From Bacteroidia bacterium (lineage in GTDB: Bacteria; Bacteroidota; Bacteroidia; UBA4408), in the NCBI GenBank assembly GCA_020845635.1, contig JADLFI010000024.1, forward strand, positions 1-48,593: a DNA stretch of 48,593 bases. Reading direction: 5' to 3'. Both the position numbers and the translations under genes were made by a program. The notes beneath the pieces are model-generated. The model was not told the DNA's origin and made no database searches. It was given only the letters and a program-made list of their open reading frames with translations. How positions within the stretch are numbered: the first letter of the stretch is position 1; each line of letters begins with the position of its first letter. Shown in pieces: positions 15,440 to 24,262 of the stretch.

Positions 15440-17248
15440 TTATGTCGTCACTATTTTAATTTTTTTTACGTCTAATAATTGCAACTCATTAGCTAATAAA
15501 TCAAGAGTGGCTTTTGAATTATTTAATACCAATTGCTGATTGTTTCTATAATAATCAATACCCGATTGAAGGTTTTCTTTAAATTTAGTATAGAATTTTT
15601 CTTGTTTTTCATCCATAGAGTCCCAACAGTCGGATAACTTCTTTTTTAAATAATCAATATATAACTTTAGTTCGTTTACAAACATGTGAGGCCTTTCGAG
15701 TTTATAATTTATTTTTTCAATACCATAAATATGATTTACCATGTTTTTGAGTGTGTAAATCCCTGAGAAGAAAGCGGTATTTGGTCCGGGACAAATTGTA
15801 ACGGCTTTAATATTGTGTGGTATATTCATATTATTATTAATGCGTACCGAGCTGCTTAAACCTTCACACAAACAATCTTTTTCTTCTACTTTAGTAATGC
15901 GTTTTTGTAATTCGTCTTCTGATAAATTTAAACTTCTTAATTGCTTAATTTTTAGATTCTGGTATTGTCGTGATGCGGTACATATTATATTTTCGGTAAA
16001 TTCTGTATTACTCGAAAGGTATTTTTTGTAGCAGGGGCTACCGGGTCTGTTTTTTGAAACCCTCTCATTTATCTGTATTTCGGAGCTTGTATTTCGTAAG
16101 TTATGAAATGGAACTCCCAAAGGTGAAGCATCACTTAGGTAAAAATCTTCCTTTTTTGCATTTCCCAATTTGTTTAAAGTTTCAGGGTCAACATTGGTGG
16201 CTTCCGGAACCAATAAAAAAGGGCTTCCCCATCCGGTTCCGTCTAATTGATAATAGGATATTAAAAAATCTTGTTCTTCAGCCGTTCCAATACCACCTTG
16301 AGCAGTAATTCTTTGCTCGGGTATTTGATTAAATACGTTTTTATTATTCTCGCTAAGGTAGGTATTGCATATCTTAAAAAGCTCCATTTGTAAGCTTTTT
16401 TTGTTTATCTTAAATTCCTCAAGTATGGGCCCCATCAAATGTCCTTGTGTGGCAAATGCGTGTCCACCACAGTTTAAACCCGATTCAATCCTATATTCCG
16501 AAACCCATAAGCCTTTTTTAGCAAGTACTTTTCCTTGTGTCATGGCCGAACGGAAATCACTCACTTTAAGGATAATTTTCTTTTCTAAGTTTTGCTGACT
16601 GTTGGGGTAAAACGCTTGAAAATTGCTTAAATAATTAAACAGTCTGGGGTTATAACCTGCCGATATTACAACAGATGAGCATAGGTTACTATTGGCAAAA
16701 CCGCGCAATGCACTTAAAGCTTCAGAAAACTCATCAGGCAATTGGTTTCCACTTTTGCTTAGGCCCGGATTATCAACTTTAGCCATAATATTAACATCTA
16801 TATCTCCGGCTACAATTGAATTTATTAACTTTTTTTGAAGTAATAATTGTTTGTCACTATCTTTCTCTTCAAGCATTTTAAGGTACTCAATTTTTAATGC
16901 TGATAAATTGGGCAATAAATCAAAATATTTATTCAGGTCGCTGCCTTCCTTAAAATCTAATGTTTTTAAATGTGTAATCTGCTCCTCAACTAATTGTTTT
17001 AATAGGTTAAGATAGCTTGTTATACGCTTCGCACGCGAGTCATTATCGTGTTTTTTAATAGGGATATATTCAATATTGTTTTTATGACAATAATAATTTC
17101 TTAGGTCTTCAATTATTTCATCATCAACTATGGATACAACTGATGAAATGCCATAGCGAGCCACCTTTAATGGAGTGTCAATACTGAAACTAATTCCTAA
17201 TACAGGAATGTGAAATGTATGCAGATTTTTTTGTGTCATTTGAAGCAT
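15440..17248 (-). CDS. Uncharacterised conserved protein with NMO/PfaD-like barrel and Cys cluster
   Basis: The 602-residue cytosolic protein starts with HIPVLGISFSIDTPLKVARY (12-31), like the entry of nitronate monooxygenase or PfaD-type FMN barrels. SGLNCGGHAFATQGHL (256-271) resembles their GGH segment, and AQGGIGTAEEQDF (316-328) their phosphate-binding loop. GTGWGSPFLLVPEATNVD follows at 337-354. A cysteine-rich segment comes next: Cys406 (RPGSPCYKKYL), Cys423 (CTASRQYQ), Cys459-x-Cys461 (DCLCEGL) and Cys486 (CPGPN). A helical, Lys-rich C-terminus ends the protein. An FMN oxidoreductase with an Fe-S or zinc site is my inference. I recall relatives only as hypothetical proteins in Bacteroidota. 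It lies 42 bases after the PP2C gene. The start is Met1 or Met4. Confidence 0.72.
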   Translation of the reverse strand: MLQMTQKNLHTFHIPVLGISFSIDTPLKVARYGISSVVSIVDDEIIEDLRNYYCHKNNIEYIPIKKHDNDSRAKRITSYLNLLKQLVEEQITHLKTLDFKEGSDLNKYFDLLPNLSALKIEYLKMLEEKDSDKQLLLQKKLINSIVAGDIDVNIMAKVDNPGLSKSGNQLPDEFSEALSALRGFANSNLCSSVVISAGYNPRLFNYLSNFQAFYPNSQQNLEKKIILKVSDFRSAMTQGKVLAKKGLWVSEYRIESGLNCGGHAFATQGHLMGPILEEFKINKKSLQMELFKICNTYLSENNKNVFNQIPEQRITAQGGIGTAEEQDFLISYYQLDGTGWGSPFLLVPEATNVDPETLNKLGNAKKEDFYLSDASPLGVPFHNLRNTSSEIQINERVSKNRPGSPCYKKYLSSNTEFTENIICTASRQYQNLKIKQLRSLNLSEDELQKRITKVEEKDCLCEGLSSSVRINNNMNIPHNIKAVTICPGPNTAFFSGIYTLKNMVNHIYGIEKINYKLERPHMFVNELKLYIDYLKKKLSDCWDSMDEKQEKFYTKFKENLQSGIDYYRNNQQLVLNNSKATLDLLANELQLLDVKKIKIVTT

Positions 17249-17290: not shown

Positions 17291-20200
17291 TTAAAATCTT
17301 ATTCCCATCACCAATACATCATCTAGTTGTTCTTGCGTTCCTTGCCATTGTGTAAAGAATAGCTGTATGTGTTTGTATTGTTCTTCCATACTTTTATCTT
17401 GAATGGAACCTAACATTTCTTTGAATTTTTTTGACATGAGTTTCTTCCCGTTTTCTCCACCAAATTGATCTACATACCCATCAGTATATAAATATATGGT
17501 ATCACCTTCATAAAACTGTATAACATGATTGGTAAAGGTTCTTTTTTCTTCACTCTGAATACCACCAATTGAAAATTTATCGGCTTTTATTTCTTCAATA
17601 AATGTTTCTCCCAAGTTAATCCCGAATTGTTTTTTATAATCATTACCTCTAAATATTATTAAAGGTCTTAATGCTCCTGAAAATTCAATTGTTTTATTTT
17701 TACGGTGTATATGGCACAAGGCTATGTCCATTCCATCACGGGTTTCATTTTCTTGTTGCTTTAAAGAATCTCTAATTCCAATATGTAAAAGCTCTAAAGT
17801 TTTTGAGGGTCTAAAATCATCGCTTTCCTGTATAATTTGATTGAGCAAGGAGTTTCCAATCATACACATAAATGCACCGGGTACACCATGACCTGTACAA
17901 TCAGCTACAGCCACATACACATCATTTTCATCGCTACTTGATTTTATTTTGTTTTTTATATCTACATACCAATAAAAGTCACCACTAACAATGGCCTTGG
18001 GTTTATAAAATATAAATGAGTTGCCAAATATTTTTTTAAACTGTCGGATACTTGGTAGTATGGCCTCTTGTATTCTTTTAGCATAGGTTATACTATCTGT
18101 AATTTCTTTATTTTTATTCACAATCTCTTCATTTTTTTCGAGGAGTGAAGAGTTCTTTTGCTCTATTTCAATGGTTCTGGCTTTAACTTGTTTTTCTAGC
18201 GAAATTTTCGCTTGTCTTAAATATCTGGTTCGAAAAGTAATGTAAGCTGCAATCAGCGAAATAAGAGCAACACTACATAACACAATAAACCATACTCTTT
18301 TATAAAAAGGGGGTATTATTTCAAATGAAAATTCCAGAGGTTTTTCGGTACAAACATCATCGCTGCTACATGCTTTAATAACAAACTTGTATTTGCCGGG
18401 CGGTAAATGTGAGTATGTTACTTTTTTGATACCATACTCCTCATTCCATTTTTCGTCAAGTCCTTCGAGCTGATATACATATTTTATTTTAGAAACATTT
18501 TTAAAGTTTAGCCCAATGAAGTGAAAGCTTATTTCATTCTCGTTATGATTAAATTTTGATTTTTGATTAAGTGAATAAGAGGTTGAGAATATTTCGAAGT
18601 TTAACAAGTATAGAATAGGAGGAACTACTTTCTCTTGTTGCTGATGTAGGTTTAACAATGTAGCGCCATTAACAGTTCCAAACCATAGACTACCGGATTT
18701 ATCATAATATGTAGCATTTGTTTTGGTTTCAATAGCAGTGAATCCTTCGTTAGAAGAATAATTACGAAAGGTATTTTTTTCCGGATTAAATTTTACCAAA
18801 CCCATATTGGTGCCAATCCATATATTATTTAACGAATCACAAGTAATTAAAGTTATGTAATCAGATATTAAACCTTTCTTTACATTATAATTAATAATTT
18901 TATCGCCTTCTTTTTTATAAATACCTCCCCCTTCGGTACCTATCCATAAGTTACCGTTAAAATCATTACAAAACGATGTAGGACTGTTATGATTAACATT
19001 GCCTTTATATCGATTTATAGTTTTATTGCTATAATACCAAATCCCGGACTCACGTGTCCCAATCCAAACTGTTCCTTTGGAGTCTTTGTGAATTTTAAGC
19101 ACTATTAATTTATCAAGCTCTGATTTATCTTTAAATTCTCCTGTTTTTATATTATAGGTGGTAAGTCCTGAGCTGGTCGCTATCCATAGCTCATTTTCAA
19201 TCATAGATAAATCGTTAATAAGCGAATGATTAATACTTAAAGTATGAACTAATTTTCCGCTATGAGCATCATATACTCCTATATCTCCTTTAAAGGTTGA
19301 TACATATATTTTGTTTTCATGTTTACAAAAAGCGGTTACAAGATTATTTCTTAAATCTGATTTTAAATCTAAATGTTTTACATTATTTATAAAGTAGTTA
19401 TTTTTTAAAGTTAAAATATCAATTCCGTCATTAGTTCCCAACCAATATTTGCCATTGTTGTCCTCTATTATGCAGTTGATTACTCCGTTATTTAATTTAT
19501 CTTCTAGCGTATAGTGAATAAATTTGAAGCCCATAAACTGAGCTAAACCTTTGTCCTGAATTCCGGCCCATAATATTGACTCGCGTCCTATAAACAAGCT
19601 ACGAACTTTATTGCCGCTTAATCCATTTTTATCAGTAATACTTATAACTTCCTTATCTTTAATATATACTATTCCTCCTTCCCAGGTAGCCGCCCAGATA
19701 CTGCCATTATTAGATATTAGAGCGGTTATGAAATTAGATTTTAAACCATCAGATAACCCAAATACTGTAGAAGTACTGTCTTTAATTTGATAATTTACTA
19801 TTCCCTGACTGGTTGTGCCAAACCAATAATTACCCCAACTGTCTTGTGTCATGGAGGTGTATTCAAAGAAAGGAAAGCCTTTGGGTTTAAAAAATATAAA
19901 GCTATCATTAATAGCATTGTAGTATTTAATTCCTAAGTCGGTTATAAACCATACTTTATTATCTTTATCAATGTAAGTCGAAAAAACGATATCGCTTAAT
20001 TTTTCATTGATGCTATATATTTTATACTCTTTACTTTTAGGATTGAGTTTAATTACGCCACTGCCTATGGTGCTTATCCAAAGATTACCTTCAGTGTCTT
20101 TATTGATATCGTTTATTCTGTTAGGTTTTTCTTTTAAGTCTAAATTAAAATGATGAAATATATTTCCATCGTAATAAGATATTTTGCCTAATGAATAACC

Positions 20201-20506
20201 TATCCAAATTACCCCTTGATTATCTTGGCAAATAGTATTAACAGAGGCTTCACTTAACCCATCATTAGTACTAAAATTAGTGAAATTTTGTCCGCTGAAT
20301 TTTGAAAGTCCTCCATCAGTAGCAAACCACATATAACCTTCCTTGTCTTGTAAAATATCATTTACATTCGATTGTATTAACCCGTCTTTAAGAGAATAAT
20401 TATTGAAATTAAATGTTTGTGCGTAGAGATAATTACAGCCTAAAGACTGAATTACTACCATAAACAGAAGAACAATTTTTATAAAGTTGATGCTGTTTTT
20501 TAGCAT
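17291..20506 (-). CDS. Reg_prop/Y_Y_Y sensor with SpoIIE-type (PP2C) phosphatase output
   Basis: This 1071-residue membrane receptor has a signal peptide (1-30) and then about fourteen Reg_prop propeller repeats (about 35-620; examples DKEGYMWFATDGGLSKF, NGKYWLGTNDGI, KGTVWIGTRESGI). A Y_Y_Y domain follows (about 655-732, ending PPGKYKFVIKA). One membrane segment lies at 738-759. A coiled coil at 765-805 joins it to a cytoplasmic SpoIIE phosphatase (810-1071). Metal-binding acidic residues are visible in SGDFYW (841-846), ADCTGHGVPGAF (868-879), YTDG (1007-1010) and LDDVLV (1061-1066). Relatives usually end in a histidine kinase or diguanylate cyclase; here the output is a Ser/Thr phosphatase. 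The TPR-caspase gene ends 2 bases upstream, so the two are surely co-expressed. Confidence 0.93.
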   Translation of the reverse strand: MLKNSINFIKIVLLFMVVIQSLGCNYLYAQTFNFNNYSLKDGLIQSNVNDILQDKEGYMWFATDGGLSKFSGQNFTNFSTNDGLSEASVNTICQDNQGVIWIGYSLGKISYYDGNIFHHFNLDLKEKPNRINDINKDTEGNLWISTIGSGVIKLNPKSKEYKIYSINEKLSDIVFSTYIDKDNKVWFITDLGIKYYNAINDSFIFFKPKGFPFFEYTSMTQDSWGNYWFGTTSQGIVNYQIKDSTSTVFGLSDGLKSNFITALISNNGSIWAATWEGGIVYIKDKEVISITDKNGLSGNKVRSLFIGRESILWAGIQDKGLAQFMGFKFIHYTLEDKLNNGVINCIIEDNNGKYWLGTNDGIDILTLKNNYFINNVKHLDLKSDLRNNLVTAFCKHENKIYVSTFKGDIGVYDAHSGKLVHTLSINHSLINDLSMIENELWIATSSGLTTYNIKTGEFKDKSELDKLIVLKIHKDSKGTVWIGTRESGIWYYSNKTINRYKGNVNHNSPTSFCNDFNGNLWIGTEGGGIYKKEGDKIINYNVKKGLISDYITLITCDSLNNIWIGTNMGLVKFNPEKNTFRNYSSNEGFTAIETKTNATYYDKSGSLWFGTVNGATLLNLHQQQEKVVPPILYLLNFEIFSTSYSLNQKSKFNHNENEISFHFIGLNFKNVSKIKYVYQLEGLDEKWNEEYGIKKVTYSHLPPGKYKFVIKACSSDDVCTEKPLEFSFEIIPPFYKRVWFIVLCSVALISLIAAYITFRTRYLRQAKISLEKQVKARTIEIEQKNSSLLEKNEEIVNKNKEITDSITYAKRIQEAILPSIRQFKKIFGNSFIFYKPKAIVSGDFYWYVDIKNKIKSSSDENDVYVAVADCTGHGVPGAFMCMIGNSLLNQIIQESDDFRPSKTLELLHIGIRDSLKQQENETRDGMDIALCHIHRKNKTIEFSGALRPLIIFRGNDYKKQFGINLGETFIEEIKADKFSIGGIQSEEKRTFTNHVIQFYEGDTIYLYTDGYVDQFGGENGKKLMSKKFKEMLGSIQDKSMEEQYKHIQLFFTQWQGTQEQLDDVLVMGIRF

Positions 20507-20508
20507 GT

Positions 20509-22902
20509 TTATTTTTTTATGAAAAAGAAAGTACCATTTTGATCTTCAAGTCCGCTAATGTTTCCAAATTTAGGCTTTTGTTTTTGATTTTGTTCAACTG
20601 CTGAAATAACTTTTTCGGTTATTTTATCAATAGAGATACATTTATCGGGTGTGTTGTTTAATATGGTGGCAAATGTTTTTGTAAAAATTGAATTGTCTGA
20701 TGCCTTCTCCCTGTCTGTACTGGTAAATACCTGTGCTGACTTTAATTTGGTAGATTCCCAATCATTGCAATCTTTAGGTTGGGTTTCGCCACGCATAGCT
20801 AAATAAAAAGCAGGGCCGGTTTCACAGGCATCGCTAATAACCAAAGTATGTCTAAGTTTGTATAATGACAAATAGCCCTTTAAACTGGTAATCGGAAAAT
20901 AGGTGTATTCATCTGTCTTTGAGGCATCGGTTGGCAGCCAATATCCTGTTTCGTTCAAATATCTGCCATGACCGGCAAACCAAACTAATAAAGATTGAAC
21001 ATTACCCTTATTAATTTGATCTCTTAACTCTATAGAGAAGAAACGATCCATTTGCGCCTTGGTCATGTTAGGTTTATGAATGATTTTACTAATGTTATAG
21101 TTGGCCAAAGCACTCTTCATGGTTATAATGTCTTTTTTTGAACCTTCCAAAGAAGGTAAACTTTGATAGTTGCTATTTTCAATAAAAACCACCCATGTTC
21201 GCCCCATAGGGTTTTTCTGTTCCTCTTCAGCTAATACTCTATTGATATAGTAGGCTATTCGTTTTCTATTGTCATAAATATCACTAGCCTCAATTACCAA
21301 GGAGTCAGTTTTTTCAATATTAATATTTAGTGAAAAAGTAGGATTGGTATTTTCGGAAGAAAAAGTTGCCATTTGACCATTAATGATAATTGACTCTACC
21401 AAACTTTCGTCATCAATTTTTCCTTCTACATATAGATTGTTAATATTGCTGTTTTCAGGTAGTATTTCTTTATCAAAGGTAATAAAAGGGCTTATTACTT
21501 CAATTTTAGGAGGAGTTGATTCTGTTCTTAATAACTCGTAGGTTTCCGTAGTTGTGTTAAAGTAAACATCAGTTACCGAAATGGTTACTTTATCCTTATT
21601 CTCTACAGGTATTTGTGCGCTGAATGATGGATTGTTGTCATCTTCTTTGAAGTTGGCCGGAACCCCGTCAATCACTATTGATTTAATATTACTTTCATCA
21701 CTTATTTTTCCTTTAATCGTACCTATTTGCTTATTCTTTGGAACTCTTATTACTTTCTTCCCTTCTTTATCATTGTTATAGGCAAATTCAATTTGTGGAT
21801 TATTTGATTCTTTATAATATTCATAAGCCTTTTCTTTACAAATTCCTAAAGCACTTTCTATACTTTTCTTGTTAAATCCTTCTTTCTTGGCAAGTATAAA
21901 TTCTTCCTCGGCTTCTTTAAATTTGTTTAATGATTGGTAACATAAGGCTCGATAATAATGTGCTTCCGGAAATTTATCACGAAACAAAATAGCATTGGTA
22001 AAATCACCGATAGCATCGGGGTATTTTTCTTGCTTTTTATACATTAACCCTCGTTCAAAATAGGCTAAAGAATTTTTTTCATTGATTTGAAAAGCTTTAA
22101 CAAAGTTTTCTTCGGCATTTAAAAAATCATTTTTAGCTGAGTAGGTTATGGCACGTTGGGTGTAAATATTGTCATCATTGTTGTCGTATGATAGAGCAGT
22201 GTTTAAGTTTTTTAATGATTCCTCATAACTTCCTGTTTTGCGTTGAGCAACGGCTAAATTGATAAAATAAGGTTTGTAAGCCATTTTGTCTTTAGCTTCT
22301 TTATATTCTTTGCTTAAATACATACATGAAATAGCTTTCAAATAACTTTGTATAGCTACTTGGGTATTTCTAGTACTGTCCATTACAACTCCTTTAATAA
22401 AGTGAGAATAATCGTTAGTGTTGTCATAATCAAGAGCTGTATTTATCTCCTTAATGGCTTCATCATATTCACCCAGCTTAATTTTATCAATGGCCATTTT
22501 TTGGTAAGTTTCAATCGTTTTATTTTTTATCTGCACCATAGTACTAAACATTTCGGTAGCTTGATTATAATTTTCAATCAACAAATAATCAATTAATGCT
22601 TTACGATACAAATCTATTTCTCCGGGTTTAATGTTTAAGGCCGATCGGTAATCGTTTATCGCTTCTTCATACCTATTCATCTTTTCTAAGCAGAATGCTC
22701 GTTCCAGATAGCAATCAAAATCAGAATTGTTTTGTTCAATAAGTGTGGAATATACCTGAAAAGCCTCTTCGTACCTTTGTGAATCTTTTAACTTGCGTGC
22801 TTCTTCTTTGTTAGCAGGTACATCTTGCCCATAAGCAATCATAAGATTGCTTAATACTCCAATGAGGCAAATTAAAATATGTTTGTATTTTAAATTTATC
22901 AA
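20509..22902 (-). CDS. Exported TPR protein with Ig-like domains and caspase-like (C14) peptidase
   Basis: A signal peptide (1-25, ending MIAYGQ) is followed by about eight TPR repeats (30-345), two related beta-sandwich domains (about 392-457 and 465-553; both carry the pattern SI-x-I-x-G) and a caspase-fold domain (567-797). The catalytic pair is visible: His645 in WFAGHG and Cys693 in ISDACETG. The domain start RTWVVFIENSNYQSLPSLEG is typical of bacterial C14 peptidases. The start is TTG at 22902; an in-frame TAA 12 bases upstream rules out longer forms, and the next Met would lose the signal peptide. It is predicted to act outside the cytoplasm. It is the first gene of the block with the PP2C receptor. 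Confidence 0.92.
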   Translation of the reverse strand: MINLKYKHILICLIGVLSNLMIAYGQDVPANKEEARKLKDSQRYEEAFQVYSTLIEQNNSDFDCYLERAFCLEKMNRYEEAINDYRSALNIKPGEIDLYRKALIDYLLIENYNQATEMFSTMVQIKNKTIETYQKMAIDKIKLGEYDEAIKEINTALDYDNTNDYSHFIKGVVMDSTRNTQVAIQSYLKAISCMYLSKEYKEAKDKMAYKPYFINLAVAQRKTGSYEESLKNLNTALSYDNNDDNIYTQRAITYSAKNDFLNAEENFVKAFQINEKNSLAYFERGLMYKKQEKYPDAIGDFTNAILFRDKFPEAHYYRALCYQSLNKFKEAEEEFILAKKEGFNKKSIESALGICKEKAYEYYKESNNPQIEFAYNNDKEGKKVIRVPKNKQIGTIKGKISDESNIKSIVIDGVPANFKEDDNNPSFSAQIPVENKDKVTISVTDVYFNTTTETYELLRTESTPPKIEVISPFITFDKEILPENSNINNLYVEGKIDDESLVESIIINGQMATFSSENTNPTFSLNINIEKTDSLVIEASDIYDNRKRIAYYINRVLAEEEQKNPMGRTWVVFIENSNYQSLPSLEGSKKDIITMKSALANYNISKIIHKPNMTKAQMDRFFSIELRDQINKGNVQSLLVWFAGHGRYLNETGYWLPTDASKTDEYTYFPITSLKGYLSLYKLRHTLVISDACETGPAFYLAMRGETQPKDCNDWESTKLKSAQVFTSTDREKASDNSIFTKTFATILNNTPDKCISIDKITEKVISAVEQNQKQKPKFGNISGLEDQNGTFFFIKK

Positions 22903-22939: not shown

Positions 22940-22947
22940 CAAATGTA
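22940..22947 (-). promoter_or_regulatory. Probable -7 element of the TPR-caspase operon
   Basis: On the minus strand this reads TACATTTG, a full TAnnTTTG match. It lies about 38 bases before the TTG start, giving a leader of about 30 bases. A TTTTG at 14 bases upstream is a possible but closely spaced -33 element inside the inverted repeat at 22958-22987. Confidence 0.45.
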
Positions 22948-22957
22948 AATGCTTTTG

Positions 22958-22987
22958 AACTCAAAATATTGAGTGATTTTTTGAGTT
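22958..22987. repeat. Inverted repeat AACTCAAAA…TTTTGAGTT upstream of TPR-caspase gene
   Basis: The arms 22958-22966 and 22979-22987 are perfect 9-bp complements with a 12-base spacer. The repeat overlaps the place where the -33 element of the caspase operon should lie. It also lies about 100 bases after the end of the SpoIID-like gene on the same strand. It could be an operator or a weak terminator hairpin; it lacks a clear T run on the minus strand. Confidence 0.45.
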
Positions 22988-23089: not shown

Positions 23090-24262
23090 TTACTCAACAT
23101 ACATGAAAAAGTCTAACTTGTCAAGATTAATAATACTTGTATTTTGGTAATAGTAATGGAGTATGGTTTTGTAACTGTAGCCCAATTTTGCCATTCGTAT
23201 AGCACCGTCCTGACAAAGCCCTGCCCCGTGCCCAAAACCTCTTCCGCTTAAGGTAATTATTCCATCTTTGTAAAAAGCATTAAAAAAGGTAGAGCGCAAA
23301 CCTAAGGCTGTCCTTATTTCTTTCAAGGGAATGGTACATGTGCCTGTAGAATAGTCTTTTTTACGCGTAAATTGTAAAAAATTATTATCCTTTCCTGAAA
23401 TTAGAGAATCGCTTCCATAATCATAATTTGGGCAGAGTTTTAACATACATTCTTTCCATTTTTCAAGGCTAATTTGTTTACTCCAAACTGCACTTTTTTC
23501 TCGGAGACAAAAAGTATCCTTAATACTTCGCAAATAACTCAAACGATTGTTCCATACATCTTCGCTATTTACGGTTTGGCCTCCGCAATTAGCATGAAAA
23601 GCTGCAGTAATTAACAAAAAATCATTATCAACCATTACCACATCAGCAGTTTTACTTACTGCTTTATTAAGCTCTTGGTTTTTATTGCTTACTCCTTTAT
23701 ACACCTGGCAGTGTTCACGGTCGCATAAGTTAATATCTTCCATTTCATGTCTTCGAAGATGACTTAAGGTATAAGTTCGGCATATTATAGCCTGAACTTT
23801 GTAATATTCAGGGGGGCGTTTTAATCCTACTTCTGCTTCTAGAACTCCGGGTAAATAATCTTCTATTTCAATATCATTTACGATAAATAAAAAACCATTT
23901 ACATTGTTAAAGATAAGACTTCCGCTATATACTTTTTCTTGTTTAAATTTTGGATGATTTAAAACACTCTCGCTATATTCAACTGCTTTTATCTGAAAAC
24001 TTTTTCCGCAAACAAAAATACTGTCACCCTTATAAGCAAAAATACTGTCATTTTGTGCCACTATTTTAAGATTAAAGTCACGACTATCTTGCTTCAATAA
24101 GACACTATCGCAATACAAAGCCGAATTTCCATTCTTATACGAAACATTTATTTCATTTAGCATTGAACCATACAAGATACCTATCTTAACTTGCGTGGCA
24201 GAGATATTTTTGAAAGTTAAGAGAAGAAACAGTAGAAATACTATACTTTTAAAACGGGGCAT
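23090..24262 (-). CDS. SpoIID/LytB-domain protein
   Basis: The 390-residue protein has a signal peptide (about 1-22). The SpoIID core starts at IEIEDYLPGVLEAEVG (131-146), where Glu144 fits the catalytic Glu of the lytic transglycosylase. CDREHCQVYKG (180-190) gives a Cys pair like the one reported to bind zinc in clostridial SpoIID. HANCGGQT follows at 223-230, and SGRGFGHGAGLCQDGA at 339-354 is the family signature. SpoIID cuts glycan strands denuded of stem peptides; in a non-sporulating Gram-negative organism it probably acts in periplasmic peptidoglycan turnover or as an amidase enhancer. Its start abuts the lpxB stop with no gap, so it is in the surE-lpxB operon. Confidence 0.9.
   Translation of the reverse strand: MPRFKSIVFLLFLLLTFKNISATQVKIGILYGSMLNEINVSYKNGNSALYCDSVLLKQDSRDFNLKIVAQNDSIFAYKGDSIFVCGKSFQIKAVEYSESVLNHPKFKQEKVYSGSLIFNNVNGFLFIVNDIEIEDYLPGVLEAEVGLKRPPEYYKVQAIICRTYTLSHLRRHEMEDINLCDREHCQVYKGVSNKNQELNKAVSKTADVVMVDNDFLLITAAFHANCGGQTVNSEDVWNNRLSYLRSIKDTFCLREKSAVWSKQISLEKWKECMLKLCPNYDYGSDSLISGKDNNFLQFTRKKDYSTGTCTIPLKEIRTALGLRSTFFNAFYKDGIITLSGRGFGHGAGLCQDGAIRMAKLGYSYKTILHYYYQNTSIINLDKLDFFMYVE

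Follow-up and report, generated by a model that had tools for sequence, protein, structure and literature searches.

What might link a secreted caspase-like protein to a transmembrane phosphatase receptor whose gene begins two bases behind its own? The question is raised by a 48,593-nucleotide stretch of DNA from a Bacteroidia bacterium of the UBA4408 lineage (assembly GCA_020845635.1, contig JADLFI010000024.1, positions 1 to 48,593), hereafter the window. Here, the gene for an exported protein with TPR, Ig-like and C14 caspase domains is followed by the gene for a receptor with a periplasmic propeller sensor and a cytoplasmic SpoIIE/PP2C phosphatase. The best overall explanation, to which we give about an even chance, is an operon for a two-part transmembrane signalling unit in which a caspase input would reach SiaC through the receptor.

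The gene pair

The pair comprises the following features.

20509..22902, minus strand: TPR-Ig-C14 caspase gene, TTG start, exported product of 797 aa; TPR at residues ~30-360, two Ig-like repeats at ~370-560, C14 domain at ~565-797
20507..20508, minus strand: junction of 2 bases between the caspase stop and the receptor ATG
17291..20506, minus strand: receptor gene, 1071 aa, ATG at 20506; signal peptide, Reg_prop double propeller, Y_Y_Y, one membrane span at 738-756, linker, SiaA-type SpoIIE/PP2C at ~780-1071

Open reading frames (ORFs), Pfam matches and hydropathy bear out a preliminary description of the pair in its coordinates, strand, domains, 2-base spacing and catalytic residues. The caspase matches TPR (3e-25) and, when its C-terminal part is scanned alone, Peptidase_C14 (PF00656; 1e-14). 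With the dyad His645/Cys693 in place, it is by sequence a member of the C14 family and a predicted protease. Solved structures searched by sequence with this protein returned no match. Its TTG start is common to the congeners with a readable start. The receptor matches Reg_prop (1e-43), Y_Y_Y (3e-12) and SpoIIE (6e-16). By hydropathy, each protein has an N-terminal signal, and the receptor has a single further span at 738-756, after which SpoIIE is the sole domain, with neither a histidine kinase nor a receiver. The 2-base junction leaves no room for a separate receptor promoter. The overall explanation takes the two genes as one operon.

Distribution of the pairing

Gene neighbours were read in a sample of 395 genomes of the class Bacteroidia and one genome-contig collection, with duplicates merged and neighbours assigned by longest ORFs, not curated annotation. 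The scan of the collection comprised the best 80 of 263 matches, which tilts toward close relatives of the query alignment. Directly upstream of a propeller receptor stand 87 of the 114 distinct TPR-Ig-C14 genes found. These include 66 before a complete propeller-SpoIIE receptor, 11 before a propeller gene truncated where the sequence read ends (a class, short, that includes receptors ending ahead of the SpoIIE domain) and 10 before a propeller receptor with another output; the rest are non-adjacent (24) or lie at a contig end (3). Adjacency occurs in nine family-level groups (f1, f6, f9, f19, f21, f29, f33, f41 and f44), and further in named Bacteroidales and Flavobacteriales metagenome-assembled genomes and in Plebeiobacterium marinum.

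The caspase gene precedes the receptor gene on one strand in all adjacent cases. The gap is at most 60 bases in 71 of 75 pairs, with a median of about 12 bases after the stop. Such receptors number about 5-20 per genome amid a few thousand genes, so that chance adjacency is estimated at below 1%. Mapped onto a 111-caspase tree, the states of adjacency require only 7-9 changes, versus 22-30 in shuffles. Adjacency across Bacteroidota, which the preliminary description had proposed as a check, is thus far above chance and spans many families beyond close relatives, and the caspase gene is not found equally often beside unrelated genes. In f3 and f1, caspase and receptor are both retained where they are unlinked.

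In five loci (L159, L167, L168, L172 and L188), a second, shorter C14 ORF lies directly upstream of the TPR-Ig-caspase, forming tandem caspase genes.

The receptor phosphatase and its possible target SiaC

The receptor phosphatase is closest to SiaA, matching the NCBIfam SiaA model at 1e-50, under the curated full-length cut-off. Aligned to the PP2C domain of SiaA (PDB 6k4e; 4.5e-32), it keeps the metal-binding Asp/Gly residues at GDF, DCTGHG, TDG and DD, and DCTGHG recurs in 64 of 65 paired receptors. In P. aeruginosa, phosphorylation of SiaC at Thr68 is set by SiaA and SiaB (PMC7647112). The genome that contains the window has exactly one SiaC (1e-44; G000:C37:176163-176519), preceded by a SiaB-type DUF6272 gene (8e-42) on another contig than the pair. 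This SiaC aligns to 6kko and 6k4f across the NTSS phosphosite, which is conserved. Homologous receptors of five genomes (G042, G184, G297, G025 and G012) share what look like operons with SiaB and SiaC (loci L291, L293, L297, L233 and L234). The preliminary description had found no partner kinase, anti-sigma or STAS protein; this holds for the window, but the genome does carry the SiaB-SiaC pair elsewhere, and it is this pair, instead of a classical anti-sigma/STAS set, that fills the place of the missing partners.

A search of the window genome for GGDEF gave no match, which makes a SiaD-type output through cyclic di-GMP (c-di-GMP) unlikely. Among 40 Bacteroidia genomes, a TerB-ABC-ABC2 exporter of ~1000 aa is present in 27 of the 28 with SiaC and in 1 of the 12 without (27/1/1/11). 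The co-occurrence is significant by Fisher test (6e-8; 7e-7 with one genome per family), and by coordinates 15 TerB-ABC copies lie within ~1.5 kb of a SiaC gene. The exporter is the leading candidate, and a possible one, for the SiaC target in bacteria without c-di-GMP.

G000:C26:24105-26558: TerB-ABC exporter of the window genome
L229, L232, L233, L291, L298: SiaC/TerB-ABC loci in relatives

Catalytic residues, output swaps and losses

None of the 77 caspases paired with a SpoIIE receptor lacks the His/Cys dyad, a strictness that argues for catalysis in these pairs. In genus g13 of f9 (loci L119-L129), the receptor carries a class III nucleotidyl cyclase (PF00211, Guanylate_cyc, 3e-56) as its output domain in place of SpoIIE. 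There, the caspases have lost the Cys in 10/10 cases, to Ala or Ser, and the genes are still adjacent in 10/10. The preliminary description had suggested that the caspase might proteolytically process the sensor; as stated, this finds no support, the f9 pair persisting with a Cys-less caspase.

The pair is split in f3. Three genomes (G009, G055 and G091) have a high-scoring SpoIIE receptor elsewhere (E ~1e-190 to 1e-217), and in a fourth (G284) the match is partial. All four have SiaC matches, with stops interrupting the copy of G091, and all four caspases have an intact dyad. In five genomes of the f3 genus g88, neither such a SpoIIE receptor (the best propeller matches end short of the phosphatase) nor SiaC was found, and the catalytic residues are lost in 5/5 caspases; the propeller match in the one genome scanned carries a histidine kinase and a receiver. 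The genus of the window also has unlinked full-length paralogues in which Cys is replaced by Thr (DATETG), with no receptor alongside (L061:6125-8509, L063:6232-8613 and L076:5888-8260).

A strict rule by which the catalytic Cys occurs only with SpoIIE was rejected because f62 caspases, in whose genomes no SiaC was found, still have both catalytic residues, whether the receptor is of the cyclase type (G276) or no partner was detected. The f62 cyclase receptor (L279:4282-7323) is followed by a gene combining MFS, HEAT and cNMP-binding domains (L279:7380-10706). Caspases of G298 and G144 stand directly before the same kind of gene (L113:2924-6220 and L115:1866-5204, the latter, in G144, assigned by a similar N-terminus only). 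This layout suggests that a version of the system works through cyclic nucleotides, with the MFS-HEAT-cNMP-binding protein as a possible cyclic-nucleotide effector.

Proposed mechanism and alternatives

In the two-part signalling unit proposed here, the TPR-Ig-caspase would be secreted to the periplasm and serve as an accessory input subunit of the propeller receptor. Recognition of an envelope cue or client presumably falls to the TPR/Ig part, and the C14 domain would act on, or dock to, the propeller/Y_Y_Y sensor; this domain may cut the receptor, cut a client that acts on the receptor, or only bind. The activity of the cytoplasmic SiaA-type PP2C domain would then change, leading to dephosphorylation of SiaC, with the SiaB kinase opposing. 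SiaC would subsequently switch partners, its target here being not a diguanylate cyclase, with the TerB-ABC exporter as the leading candidate. In a wider form, a caspase-family protein would be a secreted co-receptor of a transmembrane phosphatase (elsewhere nucleotide-cyclase) receptor across much of Bacteroidia, the caspase fold, active or dead, gating the cytoplasmic output via the propeller sensor. We hold this generalization tentatively, as somewhat less probable than not.

Several observations weigh against this proposal. The distance matrices of 65 SpoIIE pairs correlate strongly in a mirror-tree analysis (r=0.91; maximum of 0.13 in 1000 permutations), which speaks for the proposal, but this value mostly reflects common vertical descent. 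Several other SpoIIE receptors in the window genome lack caspases, so that a caspase input is optional and such receptors do not need one in general. In f9, caspases without the catalytic Cys are still paired, and pairing in that family can therefore do without proteolysis. The catalytic losses amount to about three clade-level events, not 18 independent ones. Finally, the dyad kept in f62 without a SpoIIE receptor or SiaC means that it is not strictly dependent on the phosphatase.

The strongest competitor, which we consider unlikely but worth serious attention, is that the two proteins are co-expressed without touching: both would belong to one envelope-stress programme, with the operon serving dosage and no direct signal passing between them. 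A tight gene pair by itself speaks for co-expression only, and receptors of the same family also follow CarboxypepD_reg, outer-membrane beta-barrel and PorP/SprF-like genes. However, the gene order is fixed, f3 and f1 keep both genes even where these lie apart, and the pair is kept through output swap and Cys loss. Moreover, C14 divergence follows that of the propeller when SpoIIE is controlled for (partial r 0.76), and not that of SpoIIE when the propeller is controlled for (partial r -0.16), which fits a periplasmic interface while falling short of proof. Coupling is placed on the periplasmic side because of the topology, because this co-divergence involves the propeller, and because the pair outlives output swap and Cys loss in f9, while g88, without the SpoIIE receptor and SiaC, has a dead caspase.

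The same tracking of the propeller, together with a dyad in all SpoIIE-paired genes, would also suit an arrangement in which the receptor controls a caspase effector, the periplasmic part of the receptor restraining or triggering the protease and the phosphatase output reporting or resetting it. This we judge improbable: the Cys-less caspases of f9 stay paired, and an inactive effector would be useless unless turned into a pure binding subunit. A cell-death or phage-defence module built on the caspase is very improbable, since, although C14 proteases appear in bacterial conflict systems (PMC7159879, PMC8195603), PADLOC matched none of the three proteins to a defence component, both proteins are exported, and the pair co-diverges vertically and fills whole clades, not a patchy set.

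For the two-part signalling unit, the link from an extracytoplasmic protein to phosphatase signalling inside the cell, first raised in the preliminary description, is supported by deep conservation, co-divergence and the pattern of receptor loss and output swap, and points to an undescribed route for envelope signals into the cell. To our knowledge, neither a partner nor a substrate is known for most caspase homologues of bacteria; in this case the partner is genetically fixed, and a caspase substrate or binding site is thus directly testable. The system would also supply a periplasmic input for SiaA-like PP2C receptors, which Bacteroidota have in large numbers and which have received little study. 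The dead caspases and swapped output domains constitute a natural experiment that separates binding from proteolysis.

Surroundings of the pair

The elements and genes flanking the pair are as follows.

22940..22960 (approximate position), minus strand: Bacteroidota-type -7 element TACATTTG, 45 bases ahead of the caspase start codon
22985-22993, minus strand: conserved TGTTGAAAACTC-like element, here GTTGAAAAC, ~90 bases upstream of the caspase start
23090..24262, minus strand: SpoIID/LytB-domain protein gene, upstream neighbour, kept across the genus
15440-17248: downstream gene, 602 aa, directly after the receptor gene

The same -7 element is found upstream of the caspase in both congeners read, and TAnnTTTG occurs upstream of 74 of 112 family caspases (66%) versus 269 of 824 control ORFs (33%). 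The GTTGAAAAC element was rejected as a family feature, being limited to the genus plus a single further locus. The SpoIID/LytB neighbour probably lies outside the caspase-receptor pair. The 602-aa product has no Pfam or NCBIfam match, and its gene was rejected as a third member; among the fetched related loci, its only counterparts are the window genome's own copies. The plasmid collection gave no near-full-length match, and plasmid mobility was dropped as a reading.

Comparison with known systems

A general association of C14 genes with such receptors was rejected, only ~4 loci in 40 relatives having other C14 genes beside them. Caspases of other builds (WD40-C14, WG-repeat-C14 and others) precede propeller-SpoIIE receptors at L071:10350-12896, L072:4348-10202 (a cluster of three caspase genes), L073:6310-8403, L074:195-1517 and L294:3433-5493. 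Propeller-SpoIIE receptors also follow other secreted or outer-membrane proteins (CarboxypepD_reg, beta-barrel, YceI and PorP/SprF-like) at L274-L278, L075, L079, L080 and L296. The latter arrangements hint that the receptors form a single family whose periplasmic partners can be exchanged.

The caspase resembles orthocaspases and metacaspases of the C14 family in its His/Cys dyad, as judged from sequence, and its inactive variants recall the pseudo-orthocaspases (PMC6426788). It differs from them as a secreted TPR-Ig fusion, apparently in an operon with a transmembrane receptor. The propeller repeats of the receptor resemble those of PorZ (9e-20, under the curated cut-off). However, PorZ is no transmembrane phosphatase receptor, and the window receptor, with its span and PP2C domain, is not PorZ. 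The receptor also resembles the hybrid two-component systems (HTCS) of Bacteroidota, which share the periplasmic Reg_prop and Y_Y_Y domains and the single span (1.5e-59 to the HTCS sensor 4a2l). Here, PP2C, or a nucleotide cyclase in f9 and one f62 genome, stands in for the histidine kinase and receiver.

In the open literature searched, outside which most subscription papers fall, no caspase paired with a SpoIIE/propeller receptor came up, in keeping with the preliminary description, which knew of no such system. Each part (HTCS sensor, SiaA-type PP2C, C14 fold) is already known; their combination is undescribed in the literature searched.

On the cytoplasmic side, the comparison is with SiaABCD of P. 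aeruginosa. The receptor PP2C is a SiaA homologue that retains the active-site residues, and SiaB (DUF6272) and SiaC with NTSS are present (PMC7647112). Unlike in SiaABCD, a Reg_prop/Y_Y_Y propeller stands where SiaA has its own sensor, a caspase joins as an additional partner, siaB and siaC are unlinked from the pair (linked in some relatives), and there is no GGDEF protein and hence no SiaD output. We do not count the system as a member of SiaABCD because tests for a SiaD output and for a single operon found neither; we regard it as SiaA-type PP2C signalling with a novel caspase partner.

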